From contig JAKUUP010000002.1 in the NCBI GenBank assembly GCA_022447095.1, positions 1 to 64,000 on the forward strand: DNA of 64,000 nt. Reading direction: 5' to 3'. The stretch's first letter is position 1; each line of letters starts with the position of its first letter. Shown piece by piece: positions 36,235 through 42,737 of the stretch. The stretch comes from Candidatus Thalassarchaeum betae. GTDB taxonomy: Archaea; Thermoplasmatota; Poseidoniia; Poseidoniales; Thalassarchaeaceae. The notes beneath the pieces are model-generated. The model saw nothing but the letters and a program-made list of their open reading frames with translations, searched no databases and was not told the DNA's origin. The position numbers and the translations under genes are program-made.

Positions 36235-36376
36235 GGCCTGCGACGTGCTTGGACATTACATCGTATTTGCGCAGTAAGCCCCCGAGACCTCGCCTTCCTG
36301 CTACGCAGGAGGCTCGATAGAGTTCATAAACGGGTCATCGGTGGCCGCGGTGTCGCAAGACGCTTAGGTGAAAGCC

Positions 36377-36658
36377 ATGGTCAAGATGCCACGCACGGTG
36401 AAGCGATACAGCCCCGCTGCTGGTAAGCACACCGAGCACACCGTAGAACGCGTCAGGAAGCGACGTGCTAGCGAACTGAAGTGGGGTCAGCGCCGCTTCC
36501 GCCGGGTCACCGCGGGTTACCGCGGTTTCCCCCGTCCGAAGCCCTCTGGTGAAAAGCCGACCAGGCGTGTCAATCTCATCTACCGGTGCACAGAGACTGG
36601 TAAAGCACACTCGCCCTCGGGCAAGCGTGCTAGGAAGTTCGAACTAATCGACAAGTGA
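36377..36658 (+). CDS. rpl44e: Ribosomal protein L44e, zinc ligands mostly lost
   Basis: The 93-residue protein matches L44e along its length: KHTEHTVERV, ELKWGQRRFRRVTAGYRGFPRPKPSGEKPTRRVNLIYRC and KFELIDK. I start at ATG 36377 with AGGTGA upstream. The N-terminal YCPYC of other archaea is replaced by YSPAAG, and the second CxxCG is CTETG, so only one of four zinc cysteines remains. It opens the conserved archaeal cluster with S27e, aIF2-alpha, Nop10 and PAC2. An AT-rich TTCATAAAC about 45 bases upstream may be its TATA box. Confidence 0.95.
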   Translation: MVKMPRTVKRYSPAAGKHTEHTVERVRKRRASELKWGQRRFRRVTAGYRGFPRPKPSGEKPTRRVNLIYRCTETGKAHSPSGKRARKFELIDK

Positions 36659-36671
36659 TTGAGGTATTGAG

Positions 36672-36842
36672 ATGAGTGGGAGATTCCTGCGTGTGAACTG
36701 CCGTGACTGTGGTCACGAAGCAATCATCTTTGACAGGGCGTCGACCTTGATCGCCTGCTCCATCTGCGGTGCGACACTAGCTCGCCCAGTCGGAGGCAAG
36801 GCGGATTTGTCCGGAAGCACAATTGAAGACGTCCTCAAGTGA
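36672..36842 (+). CDS. rps27e: Ribosomal protein S27e
   Basis: This 56-residue gene is too short for the ORF track. It runs from ATG 36672 to TGA 36840-36842 and translates to MSGRFLRVNCRDCGHE...STLIACSICGATLARPVGGKA. The zinc finger is intact (CRDC and CSIC). GAGGTATTGAG precedes the start. It lies 13 bases after rpl44e and 13 bases before aIF2-alpha, the standard archaeal order. Confidence 0.96.
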   Translation: MSGRFLRVNCRDCGHEAIIFDRASTLIACSICGATLARPVGGKADLSGSTIEDVLK

Positions 36843-36855
36843 AGGGGACGTTACC

Positions 36856-37641
36856 ATGGACGGCGCAGACGACTGGCCCGAGGAGGGTGAGTTGCTCATC
36901 TGCACAGTCAAGGACGTCCGCGAAAACGGAGCTTACCTCAACCTCGACGGATATGGCGAACGTTCCGGCTTCGTCTTCATCGGGGAAGTGGCTGCCGGCT
37001 GGGTCAAGAACATCAGATCACACCTCAGAGTGGGTCAGCGGGTCGTGGCCAAGGTAATTCAAATCAAGAAGGACAGGCAGAGAGTCGAACTCTCCATCAA
37101 GTCCGTCTCCGATGAGCGCAGGAGGGACACTCTGCAGGCTTGGAAGAACAAGCAGCGTGCAGGGCAGATCATGCGCGTCGTAGCCGGGCGAGTCGGGTGG
37201 GACGAGGAAAAGACGAGCGCTGTATGCGACGAGATGGAGGAGATCTTCGGTACGCTGTATGGTGCGCTTGAGGAGTGCACCCTCAGCGAGGATGCTCTGT
37301 CCGATGCCGGCTTCACTGGCGATTGGATGAGCGTTGTCATCGAGTTGGCCGTCGAGAACATTGTCCCCCCGTTCGTAGAGATCCGTGGCGAGTTCGACAT
37401 TCAGGTCTGGGGGCCCGAGGGAGTCTATGCGATTCGCGAGGCCCTGCTCGCTGCCGAGGCCTGCGCAGTAGGTCTCGAGGAGGTTACACTGACGTGTCAC
37501 TACGACGGGGCTCCGCACTACCGAGTGGATATCCACGCCCCTGACTATCAGGCAGCCGAGTCTGTCTGGGAGGCGGCGCAGAAAGCGGCTTCGGATATCG
37601 TGTCCTCGGTCGATGGTTCAATCAGCGCTGAACGCGTCTGA
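36856..37641 (+). CDS. Translation initiation factor aIF2 alpha subunit
   Basis: aIF2-alpha is part of the heterotrimer that brings initiator tRNA to the ribosome. The N-terminal S1 domain (GELLICTVKDVRENGAYLNLDGYGERSGFVFIGEV...VAKVIQIKKDRQRVELSIKSV) is followed by a helical domain and a C-terminal alpha/beta domain (GEFDIQVWGPEGVYAIREALLAAE). I chose ATG 36856 instead of 36823, because the family begins near this point and 36823 overlaps rps27e (261 residues). It is co-directional with rps27e and nop10. Confidence 0.96.
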   Translation: MDGADDWPEEGELLICTVKDVRENGAYLNLDGYGERSGFVFIGEVAAGWVKNIRSHLRVGQRVVAKVIQIKKDRQRVELSIKSVSDERRRDTLQAWKNKQRAGQIMRVVAGRVGWDEEKTSAVCDEMEEIFGTLYGALEECTLSEDALSDAGFTGDWMSVVIELAVENIVPPFVEIRGEFDIQVWGPEGVYAIREALLAAEACAVGLEEVTLTCHYDGAPHYRVDIHAPDYQAAESVWEAAQKAASDIVSSVDGSISAERV

Positions 37642-37704: not shown

Positions 37705-37926
37705 ATGGTTCGCACCAAGCTTCAGCGCTGCACCTCCTGTGGCGAGCACGGTCTAGGGGCCAGATGCAAGGAGTGCGGTGCAGCCATGGTCGCCGTCTCG
37801 CCAATGAAGTTCTCACCAGAAGACCCGCAGGGAGCCAGGCGCAGGAAGAGGCTCGATGTGGGCAGCAAGGAGTGGCTGGAGTCGCTTCCTACCCCGCGCG
37901 AGGAAAACGGGGGCGAGGAGGAGTGA
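37705..37926 (+). CDS. nop10: H/ACA RNP protein Nop10
   Basis: Nop10 helps form the H/ACA guide RNP that makes pseudouridine in rRNA. The N-terminal zinc ribbon is CTSCGEHGLGARCKECG and the linker is the conserved PMKFSPEDPQGARRRKRL. At 73 residues it is slightly longer than most Nop10 because of an acidic tail. Its stop overlaps the GTG start of the PAC2 gene. Confidence 0.95.
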   Translation: MVRTKLQRCTSCGEHGLGARCKECGAAMVAVSPMKFSPEDPQGARRRKRLDVGSKEWLESLPTPREENGGEEE

Positions 37927-38687
37927 ATCGCACCAAGATACACTGGCTGGTAGGAGATGGGCTGCCCGAGCACGTCGCGATGATTGAGGCGGTACCCGGG
38001 GTCGGCAACGTCGGTAAGTTGATCGTTGACTCGCTGATCGAGAAGCATCCCTCTCGCAGCATCGGATGGATTTTGAATCCGGACTTTCCTCCTCACTCGA
38101 CTCTGGATGAGAATGGCCTAGTCGCGCCACCTCGAATCAACATCAACTCCGTGATGCTACCCGATGGCAGTACCGTGATCACGATCGGCGGGTCGCTACA
38201 GCCCATGACTGCCGTGGGTCAACACGAGATCGCAGAGAGCATCCTCGCGCTCGCGGCAGAATCGAATACACCTCGACTACTGGTACTAGCCGGCCTCGCT
38301 GCAGGAACCGATGACAAGGGCATCCACGTCATCTGCGCCGACCCCAAAGTCAGAAAGGAGATGGAGGCTGACGACATCCCCGTTAGCCGGGAGCATCCAG
38401 AGGCTGGTATGATAGGCGTCGCCGGCCTTATTCTAGCGCTCTCTCCTCTCCATGGAGTGTCCGCCATAGGACTCGTCGCAGAGACACTCGGTGCCAGTAC
38501 AGATGTGCTCGCCGCAGACCGGCTGGCATCTTGGATCGAAGCCGGACTCGACCTGCCTCTGAGTCTCGATCTGGATTCCACCGAGGAGACTGCGAGGAAG
38601 TTAATGGCAACCATGGAAGTCAGCGGCTCCATCGAAGAAACCCTGGGGGCGGAAGAGTCGGAAGGTTCCAGCGACTTCTACGTCTGA
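37923..38687 (+). CDS. PAC2-family protein (proteasome assembly chaperone-like)
   Basis: I start at GTG 37923, which overlaps the nop10 stop (GTGA), rather than the track ATG 37764 inside nop10 (254 residues). The fold and motifs fit archaeal PAC2/PbaB-like proteins: AVPGVGNVGKLIVDSLIE, ITIGGSLQPMTAVGQHEIAESIL, LVLAGLAAG, and AGLILALSPLHGVSAIGLVAETLG. They act as ATP-independent chaperones, possibly in proteasome assembly. The gene neighbourhood with nop10 is conserved in archaea. Confidence 0.92.
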   Translation: MNRTKIHWLVGDGLPEHVAMIEAVPGVGNVGKLIVDSLIEKHPSRSIGWILNPDFPPHSTLDENGLVAPPRININSVMLPDGSTVITIGGSLQPMTAVGQHEIAESILALAAESNTPRLLVLAGLAAGTDDKGIHVICADPKVRKEMEADDIPVSREHPEAGMIGVAGLILALSPLHGVSAIGLVAETLGASTDVLAADRLASWIEAGLDLPLSLDLDSTEETARKLMATMEVSGSIEETLGAEESEGSSDFYV

Positions 38688-40760: not shown

Positions 40761-40846
40761 GCCGAGATCGCATAGCCCGGTATTGCGGTGGATTCGAAAT
40801 CCACTGTCCATTGGACGCGGGGGTTCAAATCCCTCTCTCGGCGCCA
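40761..40846 (+). tRNA. tRNA-Ser (anticodon CGA)
   Basis: A class II tRNA with acceptor GCCGAGA/TCTCGGC, anticodon stem GTGGA/TCCAC enclosing TTCGAAA (anticodon CGA), a long variable arm, and T arm GGGTTCAAATCCC. The discriminator is G and CCA is encoded. Its 3' end lies 1 base from the stop codon of the convergent nuclease gene. The ORF at 40626-40847 on the minus strand is an artefact of this tRNA. Confidence 0.94.
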
Positions 40847-40847
40847 T

Positions 40848-42689
40848 TCAGAAGTCGGGTACTTCCGATGCTTCGCGCAGGAGTACGAGTCGCCCGCCGG
40901 GGCCTATCCGGACCTGCGGCTGACCGTTGAACTCGCCGATCTCGCCGTTGAGTATAGCTATCTCGTCGCCTCGCGAAACGCCCGCTGCAGCGATCGGGAT
41001 GAACTGCTTGAACGCGACCACGCCTGCAGAGCCAGTCTGGTCAACGATGGTGATTGACCACCTCGTGACGCCGGCACCGTCAGGGAAGGCATTGATCGAC
41101 CATACCCTGCCGATGGCGTTCACCTTGGTCTCGACGTCGACGATGGGTGCCGAGTCGGAGTCTTCTGCTATCTCCACCGATGACTTGGCGTCGAGGTCGA
41201 GGACCACTTCGCCGCGCCAGACCGACGCCATCGCGTTGTCGATCCTGACTCGGCTGCCGTCGCGTATCGAGCGCGTCACATCCGTGGGGCTGCCGTAGCG
41301 TGACGGTTTGACCTTGGCGCGGTCGTAGCCCTCCTGCAGTGTGAACGAGAGGTCGACGGTGCCATCGGCAGCCAGATTCGGACCGCGGAGTCCCGAGACC
41401 TCTCCGACCACATTGACGCGGGTCACTATCTCGCCCAGAGGGGTCACCGGCCATCTGTGCCCGAAGCGGTCTATGCTGCGCTCCAGCGGCAGTTCGAGTT
41501 CGTGCTCGCTGCCCTCGCACACCCCTCTGAGATCACATCGGATGCATCGTGCTCTCGGGTCGGGGTCGACAGGCTTTGCAGAGGGTATGCCGCCTTCGTC
41601 AAAGTAGCGCAATGGGGCAGGCTCAGGGGGGCACTCGTCTATCGATGGGTCGCGCGAGTGTATTTTCAGATAGAGTTCCGACAGCTCCTCAGTGAGGCCT
41701 TCCAACTCCTCCGCACTTGGCCGGGGGACGTCCTTGACCGTACCTGGTCCCAGATACCAGATCTCCAGCGCCTCGACTTCGTCGGCGTGACCGTGGGTCT
41801 CCCACCACAGCCAGCCGTAGAGGCGGAGTTGCTCTATGTAGCCACCTGAGCGGTCGCCCTTTCCTATCGAGGCCTTGAGGTCGATTATCCGGATCTTCCC
41901 GGTCCAGTCGTACACCATGTCGTATTCGCCTTGGAACCACTCGTCGGGATGTGATGTGGTCAGTTTGAACTGCCCAGCATCCGGGTCGACGAACCACGGG
42001 CGTGCGACTTCCCAAGCCTCACACCATGTGATCTCTCCAGAATCGTGGGCGGCAGGATGGACCTCGTTCCAGACTCGCGGGAACCCGTCTGGGGCTGGCC
42101 AGTCGCCTCTCGAGCCGCCTTTGCGCCAATCGGCTAGGCCGGGCCCCCCGCCCGCCTCAATACACGCCTGCACCTGGTCGAGATGGAGCCGTAGGCCGGC
42201 TCTGGTCATCGCGAGTCCTTCATCGGGGTCTGCGGCGTCGGCCGAGCCGACTCGGTTGGGAATGGACTCCCAGTCGAGCACAGCAGCCTCCCAGCAGGCC
42301 TCAAAGTGGACATCGGCCCTCGCCATCGCCCACGCCTCGAGTGAAACGCGGTCAGTGGGCCACTCGTCCTCGGACAGTTCGACCAGTGTCGGAGCGGGCC
42401 ATGCCAACGGGTTGTCGTAGGCTGGCGAGCCGTCTTCCATCAAGGGGGAGGTCATCTCATCGGCGGCATCGGCGGCGACCAGCACGGGGGTGTCCCTGAG
42501 CACTCGGCAGATGCACTCCTCTACTGCGTTGCCACGTATGATCTGCGGAGGGAGGGTGCCCTTCAGGCGCTCCATGTAGGTGTAGTACCAGAGTCTGTTG
42601 CAGGACTTCCAGAGGATGACCTGGGAGGCGGAAAGCCTGCGGTAGGGGTTCACCCCCGCACTCTCAGGATCGCCTCTTCTGACCGGCAC
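40848..42689 (-). CDS. Cas4/RecB-like PD-(D/E)XK nuclease with Fe-S cysteines fused to OB-fold domains
   Basis: The 613-residue protein begins with RLSASQVILWKSCNRLWYYTYMERL, the Cas4/AddB-type opening with its first Fe-S Cys (~30). The nuclease core shows GEYDMVYDWTGKIRIIDLKAS (catalytic Asp and DxK) and the YIEQLRLYGWLWWE motif, then the remaining three cysteines in CIRCDLRGVC (~380-390). The last ~200 residues hold two OB-fold-like segments (EIVTRVNVVGEVSGL... and VETKVNAIGRVWSINAF...WSITIVDQTGSAGVVAF), as in RPA-type single-strand DNA-binding proteins. No cas genes or helicase are nearby, so a repair or recombination role is more likely than CRISPR. Confidence 0.88.
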   Translation of the reverse strand: MPVRRGDPESAGVNPYRRLSASQVILWKSCNRLWYYTYMERLKGTLPPQIIRGNAVEECICRVLRDTPVLVAADAADEMTSPLMEDGSPAYDNPLAWPAPTLVELSEDEWPTDRVSLEAWAMARADVHFEACWEAAVLDWESIPNRVGSADAADPDEGLAMTRAGLRLHLDQVQACIEAGGGPGLADWRKGGSRGDWPAPDGFPRVWNEVHPAAHDSGEITWCEAWEVARPWFVDPDAGQFKLTTSHPDEWFQGEYDMVYDWTGKIRIIDLKASIGKGDRSGGYIEQLRLYGWLWWETHGHADEVEALEIWYLGPGTVKDVPRPSAEELEGLTEELSELYLKIHSRDPSIDECPPEPAPLRYFDEGGIPSAKPVDPDPRARCIRCDLRGVCEGSEHELELPLERSIDRFGHRWPVTPLGEIVTRVNVVGEVSGLRGPNLAADGTVDLSFTLQEGYDRAKVKPSRYGSPTDVTRSIRDGSRVRIDNAMASVWRGEVVLDLDAKSSVEIAEDSDSAPIVDVETKVNAIGRVWSINAFPDGAGVTRWSITIVDQTGSAGVVAFKQFIPIAAAGVSRGDEIAILNGEIGEFNGQPQVRIGPGGRLVLLREASEVPDF

Positions 42690-42737
42690 GGAGAGGTAAC
42701 GAAAGTCGAGGCTCTATGAACCCAACGAGAATGTTCC

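Follow-up and report, generated by a model that had tools for sequence, protein, structure and literature searches.

Eukaryotic and bacterial Dna2-like helicase-nucleases join an Fe-S nuclease to an SF1B helicase and contain an OB module, and single-stranded DNA (ssDNA) or flaps are their presumed substrate. The Dna2 nuclease domain, Cas4, and the C-terminal domain of AddB are iron-staple RecB-family nucleases, which share a D...DxK...QxxxY core and one N-terminal plus three C-terminal cysteines (PMC7430649, PMC3466216). Characterized relatives include AddB and the DNA2-like protein Bad (PMC7430649), as well as Cas4 Sso0001, which contains a 4Fe-4S cluster and degrades ssDNA exonucleolytically in the 5'-3' direction (PMC3466216). 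Solo-Cas4 proteins of about 200 aa, such as Sso0001 and Pcal_0546, are encoded by stand-alone archaeal genes and have been proposed to have uncharacterized defense roles (PMC5704561). A literature search of open-licence papers found no earlier description of a nuclease-OB fusion, of AddAB in the order Poseidoniales, or of break and flap processing in Marine Group II.

Marine Group II belongs to the abundant archaeal groups of the surface ocean. The DNA analyzed here (the window, 64,000 nucleotides from a contig of "Candidatus Thalassarchaeum betae," order Poseidoniales) contains a gene, designated A, predicted to encode an iron-staple nuclease followed by two OB folds. Compared with the described systems, the product of A is best read as belonging to neither the Cas4 nor the Dna2 family and as potentially Dna2-like in action, without the helicase.

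Domain architecture and conservation of the nuclease-OB protein

The initial annotation of the window had proposed a PD-(D/E)XK nuclease with four cluster cysteines joined to two RPA-like OB folds in a single 613-residue chain. The following features were assigned to gene A.

40848..42689, minus strand: gene A, open ORF of 613 aa with a GTG start, encoding an Fe-S nuclease plus tandem OB protein
41496..42650, minus strand: nuclease module of the PD-(D/E)XK iron-staple type, residues 14-398 (PF12705; A3 profile against Cas4 4r5q; viral Foldseek)
42600..42602, minus strand: Cys30, N-terminal cluster ligand (invariant in A and B; aligns with a Cys of Cas4 4r5q)
42519..42533, minus strand: motif I GNAVE (G53-E57), GxxxE versus GxxxH in Cas4 (invariant E57; 4r5q alignment)
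41919..41930, minus strand: motif GEYD (254-257) with catalytic Asp257 (invariant)
41874..41882, minus strand: motif DLK, metal/catalytic residues D270 and K272 (invariant)
41817..41831, minus strand: motif QLRLY (Q287, Y291), the QxxxY of RecB-family nucleases (invariant)
41517..41546, minus strand: C-terminal staple C382-x2-C385-x5-C391 (cysteine pattern of aligned copies)
41163..41426, minus strand: OB fold 1 (OB1), about residues 422-509 (AlphaFold strands, module 424-507; 2k75 Ta0387, E 1e-4)
40872..41126, minus strand: OB fold 2 (OB2), about residues 522-606 (archaeal RPA, E 8e-12; SSB, E 2e-8; AlphaFold module 522-605)

The GTG start coincided with the MPV/VPV starts of relatives. A tRNA-Ser(cga) gene (40761-40846) was located directly downstream, convergent with A and 1 bp from its stop codon. 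The proposed nuclease chain was borne out by a match to PDDEXK_1 (PF12705) above the cutoff (Pfam, E 4e-11), by invariant residues (see below), and by an AlphaFold2 model calculated from an alignment of 53 homologs (pLDDT 91.7, pTM 0.87), in which the nuclease module was followed by two beta-rich modules.

In the single sequence, the C-terminal OB fold matched PF01336 below the cutoff (Pfam, E 0.005), and residues 424 to 516 gave weak archaeal SSB/RPA matches (NCBIfam, E 2e-4 to 0.06). A family profile of the OB region matched Pyrococcus RPA (E 8e-12) and Sulfolobus SSB (E 2e-8) in OB2 and, more weakly, Thermoplasma Ta0387 (2k75, E 1e-4) in OB1, which indicates homology to archaeal RPA/SSB for both folds, strong for OB2 and weaker for OB1; in A these folds are joined to a nuclease. 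The C-terminal region was modeled as two all-beta modules, and the model and the family profile agreed on RPA-like OB folds fused to the Fe-S nuclease. Tandem-OB proteins (HIN-200, POT1, and Teb1) were the best Foldseek matches among solved structures, with TM-scores that were low because only part of the chain aligned; the whole-chain search was dominated by the OB pair, and its PDB result carries little information on the nuclease. The Foldseek viral library gave matches to OB proteins (LEF-3) and to RecB/Cas4-type PD-(D/E)XK nucleases alike, including a 250-aa entry covering the nuclease region (target TM 0.72). The OB region was the least conserved part of the protein, with D550 and G574 as its only invariant residues. 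Since the HIN-200 OB pairs that were the top structural matches include binders of double-stranded DNA, the OB folds alone are not proof of ssDNA binding.

A-type proteins were found in 46 of 48 Poseidoniales genomes and in 0 of 146 other genomes of the phylum. The scope of this order specificity is the phylum; beyond it, the search covered close relatives. Profile matches outside the order but within the phylum were mainly to RPA-like OB regions and never to the full nuclease-OB architecture; RPA-like ORFs across the phylum were matched at profile positions of about 474 to 611 (E to 2e-13), and separate ORFs of about 570 to 590 aa within the order matched the OB part only. A is a core gene of the Poseidoniales, specific to the order within its phylum and inherited vertically across it. 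A search for the same domain order recovered nuclease-then-OB proteins throughout the Poseidoniales, so the arrangement is neither an assembly chimera nor chance; an artefactual fusion was ruled out by dozens of independent assemblies with this architecture. The dN/dS ratios of pairs with measurable dS (saturated pairs were left out) were 0.06 to 0.12 in the nuclease and OB parts alike, indicating purifying selection. A is an ordinary inherited housekeeping gene of Marine Group II archaea. One contig labeled as a Micrococcales bacterium (L044, NZLD01000096.1) contained an archaeal A gene (63% identity) and was probably mis-binned.

Catalytic and cluster residues

In all 53 aligned homologs of A and of its paralog B (see below), residues E57, G254, E255, D257, D270, K272, Q287, and Y291 were invariant, and the motifs of iron-staple RecB-family nucleases (D, D/ExK, and QxxxY) were present in 53/53 copies. 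The catalytic Asp and Lys were among these residues, and the failure to align with Cas4 that would have told against the annotated nuclease did not occur. Cys30, Cys382, and Cys385 were likewise invariant (53/53), and Cys391 was present in every A copy, giving A one N-terminal and three C-terminal cysteines spanning the domain. A fifth cysteine, C176 (window 40848-42689), was conserved without exception in A and B and is located outside the staple. The nuclease profile gave a weak, partial match to Cas4 structure 4r5q (E 0.007), in which Cys30 coincided with a Cas4 cysteine and E57 with the GxxxH His. That His was kept by a 407-aa solo nuclease and an AddB-like protein of the same genome, whereas A has Glu.

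The C-x2-C-x5-C pattern was found in 34/34 A copies of the alignment and in all six B copies from the family of the window. The last staple cysteine was missing from 13/13 B copies of the Poseidoniaceae, which had one cysteine upstream instead, in the pattern C-x4-6-C-x2-C in 12 copies (and C-x1-C-x2-C in one); an example of a relocated cysteine is the B copy at L055:7111-8874. Every A and B copy had four cysteines, relocation included, which argues that the cluster was selected for in both subunits. A 4Fe-4S cluster is predicted for A from its conserved cysteines, and the relocated cysteine of Poseidoniaceae B would serve as a cluster ligand.

The description of A as "Cas4-like" held for its fold but not for family membership. 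The Cas4 label was ruled out by three results: Pfam and NCBIfam searches at E values up to 10 returned no Cas4 family, motif I was an invariant GxxxE and not GxxxH, and no Cas1 was found in 60 Poseidoniales genomes, leaving A without a cas1/cas2 association. The absence of Cas1 also agreed with the annotated position outside any CRISPR locus. Like solo-Cas4, A is a stand-alone archaeal gene with Fe-S cysteines, and its N-terminal stretch aligns with Cas4 structure 4r5q, but at 613 aa it contains OB folds, has Glu for His, and matches no Cas4 model. No helicase domain was found in the chain (Pfam matches and AlphaFold model), as the annotation had stated, and the fusion of an Fe-S nuclease to an SF1B helicase that defines Dna2 was therefore absent. 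A shares with Dna2-like proteins the Fe-S nuclease, the OB module, and a presumed ssDNA or flap substrate; its OB folds, in contrast, are C-terminal and RPA-like, and two paralogous subunits exist. Relative to iron-staple nucleases in general, the distinguishing features are GxxxE, the roughly 200 residues from motif I to Asp257, the fused tandem OB folds, the ancestral A/B gene pair, and the cluster cysteine relocated in Poseidoniaceae B.

Tandem paralog and gene neighborhood

The neighborhood of A in the window included the following features.

42690..42737, no strand: 48 bp separating A from the radical-SAM gene upstream; B and ABCE1, located here in other lineages, are missing
36368..37641, plus strand: L44e ... 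aIF-2alpha genes, an informational cluster neighboring A
37764-38687: PAC2-family gene, after L44e ... aIF-2alpha

Two adjoining paralogs, B and A, were found in the Poseidoniaceae and among early genera of the family to which the window belongs. B copies were 23 to 30% identical to the window protein over its whole length, and the model of B contained the same modules as A (pLDDT 82.6). The array had the order ABCE1-B-A, with B directly upstream of A at a spacing of 22 to 55 bp and ABCE1 upstream of B wherever B was present (spacing of 5 to 48 bp in 13 measured loci). In a quick tree with SH-aLRT support only, A and B fell on opposite sides of a fully supported branch; because each side held members of both families, the duplication is older than the split between them. 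These sequence comparisons indicate that the tandem pair is the ancestral state and that B was lost in the window's clade, in which a radical-SAM gene is upstream of A in place of ABCE1-B. A remnant or displaced B was sought in the window genome, and the profile found A only. B and A were probably cotranscribed and probably worked as a heteromer. The ancestral tandem paralog, the GxxxE of motif I, and the relocated cysteine of Poseidoniaceae B had been missed by the initial annotation. The L44e/aIF-2alpha genes are on the strand opposite to A and are therefore not part of its operon; in many archaea this set is contiguous with PCNA/primase/GINS genes (PMC2643942).

End-processing nucleases of the order

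NurA was absent from all Poseidoniales genomes of the sample, and typical HerA was absent from the order, with weak matches only in the Poseidoniaceae, mostly to ORFs of about 800 to 900 aa. No Poseidoniales genome matched Mre11/SbcD (TIGR00619); all 85 matching genomes were outside the order, and the genomes listed as nonmatching were all Poseidoniales. Because other metallophosphatases probably account for some of the 85 matches, this contrast rests on the complete absence from the order. HerA and Mre11 were present in most of the phylum, unlike the Poseidoniales, and NurA and HerA were still side by side in G062, a relative from the same class but not the same order. A Rad50 zinc-hook profile, which missed the controls Haloferax and Methanosarcina, was not informative on Rad50. 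The machinery with which archaea usually process broken DNA ends thus seems to have been lost from the Poseidoniales. Two further loci with PDDEXK_1 nucleases were found in the order.

L087:6887-15435 (G000:C70): AddAB-like pair, a 1643-aa UvrD plus PDDEXK_1 protein with a 1205-aa PDDEXK_1 protein upstream
L088:6704-7927 (G000:C16): 407-aa solo nuclease (PDDEXK_1 at E 2e-21; Cas4 and DruK matched weakly)

The absence of NurA, the usual HerA, and Mre11/SbcD matches, together with the near-universal presence of A in the order and its specificity within the phylum, would fit A as the main nuclease of double-strand-break end resection, in place of the lost Mre11-Rad50/HerA-NurA. We regard this as unlikely. 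The 1643-aa protein had its best NCBIfam matches to AddA/RecB, and its 1205-aa partner, which has the staple cysteines, was found in 32/34 order genomes and in 0/111 other genomes of the phylum. This AddAB-like helicase-nuclease fits resection better than A because it brings a motor, and it is the likelier candidate for bulk resection. NurA was also missing from other lineages of the phylum that have no A. Replacement of NurA/HerA by A looked strong until the AddAB-like pair was found. Both A/B and the AddAB-like pair consist of two subunits; the latter, with PDDEXK_1 in both, differs in its UvrD helicase motor and in keeping GxxxH.

FEN1 was present in the order, and its replacement by A was ruled out. 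In the 407-aa nuclease, GxxxH was kept and some 110 aa extended the C terminus; its gene was near that of the NAD-dependent DNA ligase LigA, and nearly every order genome had similar ORFs with PDDEXK_1 (about 390 to 480 aa). FEN1, the AddAB-like pair, and the solo nuclease already cover much of the chemistry of A. Given an AddAB-like pair better suited to the end resection considered in the initial annotation, and FEN1 for ordinary flaps, A can be no more than one among several nucleases of this kind.

A defense nuclease acting against viruses or plasmids, for which the roles proposed for solo-Cas4 provide a precedent (PMC5704561), is improbable. DruK, a Druantia nuclease, was matched weakly by PADLOC (E 5e-3 with A; as low as 3e-6 with one B copy), but these matches spanned only about 50 to 60 residues around the active site, and A is vertically inherited, order-wide, and confined to one locus with ribosome and repair genes around it, neither patchy nor in a defense island. 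One profile scan of viral contigs returned 28 pattern matches and no relative, which also speaks against a viral origin.

Proposed function

A is most readily read as a housekeeping nuclease of Poseidoniales replication and repair that acts on ssDNA and flaps with its own ssDNA-binding arm (probability roughly 0.55). We infer the ssDNA preference and cutting of A, its complex with B, and its pathway as follows. The tandem RPA-like OB folds would hold ssDNA at a flap, resected tail, or gap and pass it on to the iron-staple PD-(D/E)XK domain of the same chain, where cutting would use metal held by D257, D270, and K272, with E57 in place of the usual His. Capture by the OB folds and delivery to the nuclease seem likeliest from the fold and from the characterized relatives (Sso0001, AddB, and Bad). 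A would thereby be the nuclease-plus-OB half of Dna2 in action, any helicase being supplied in trans. Having originated as two divergent subunits, B and A, of which the window's clade retains A alone, the system (A, plus B where present) would more probably trim flaps, tails, or the ssDNA of stalled forks than resect ends in bulk, and a motor may act in trans.

Gene context points both ways: A is beside L44e/aIF-2alpha/PAC2, a cluster tied to PCNA-primase-GINS in other archaea, but its neighbors ABCE1, aIF-2alpha, and L44e are translation genes. Action on RNA or ribosome-linked nucleic acid, suggested by ABCE1 directly upstream of B, by aIF-2alpha and L44e beside A, and by the RNA binding of which OB folds are also capable, has little probability, since the nuclease fold comes from a DNA-cutting superfamily, the OB folds have their matches in RPA/SSB, the housekeeping gene ABCE1 is not beside A in the window's clade, and in other archaea this translation set is also found clustered with replication genes (PMC2643942).

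Beyond the proposed ssDNA/flap nuclease, it is tentatively suggested, and remains doubtful, that A and B formed a heteromeric Fe-S nuclease, Dna2-like but helicase-free and with four OB folds, which together with the AddAB-like motor replaced the entire Mre11-Rad50/HerA-NurA set at the origin of the order and was reduced to a single subunit in the window's clade.

A matters because Marine Group II has apparently lost the usual archaeal end-processing machinery. An order without NurA, typical HerA, and Mre11, but with nuclease-OB and AddAB-like pairs, is a natural test of rewired recombination. The moved cysteine in B is a natural experiment on cluster geometry, and A itself may serve as a compact model for the guidance of an iron-staple nuclease by an ssDNA-binding arm.
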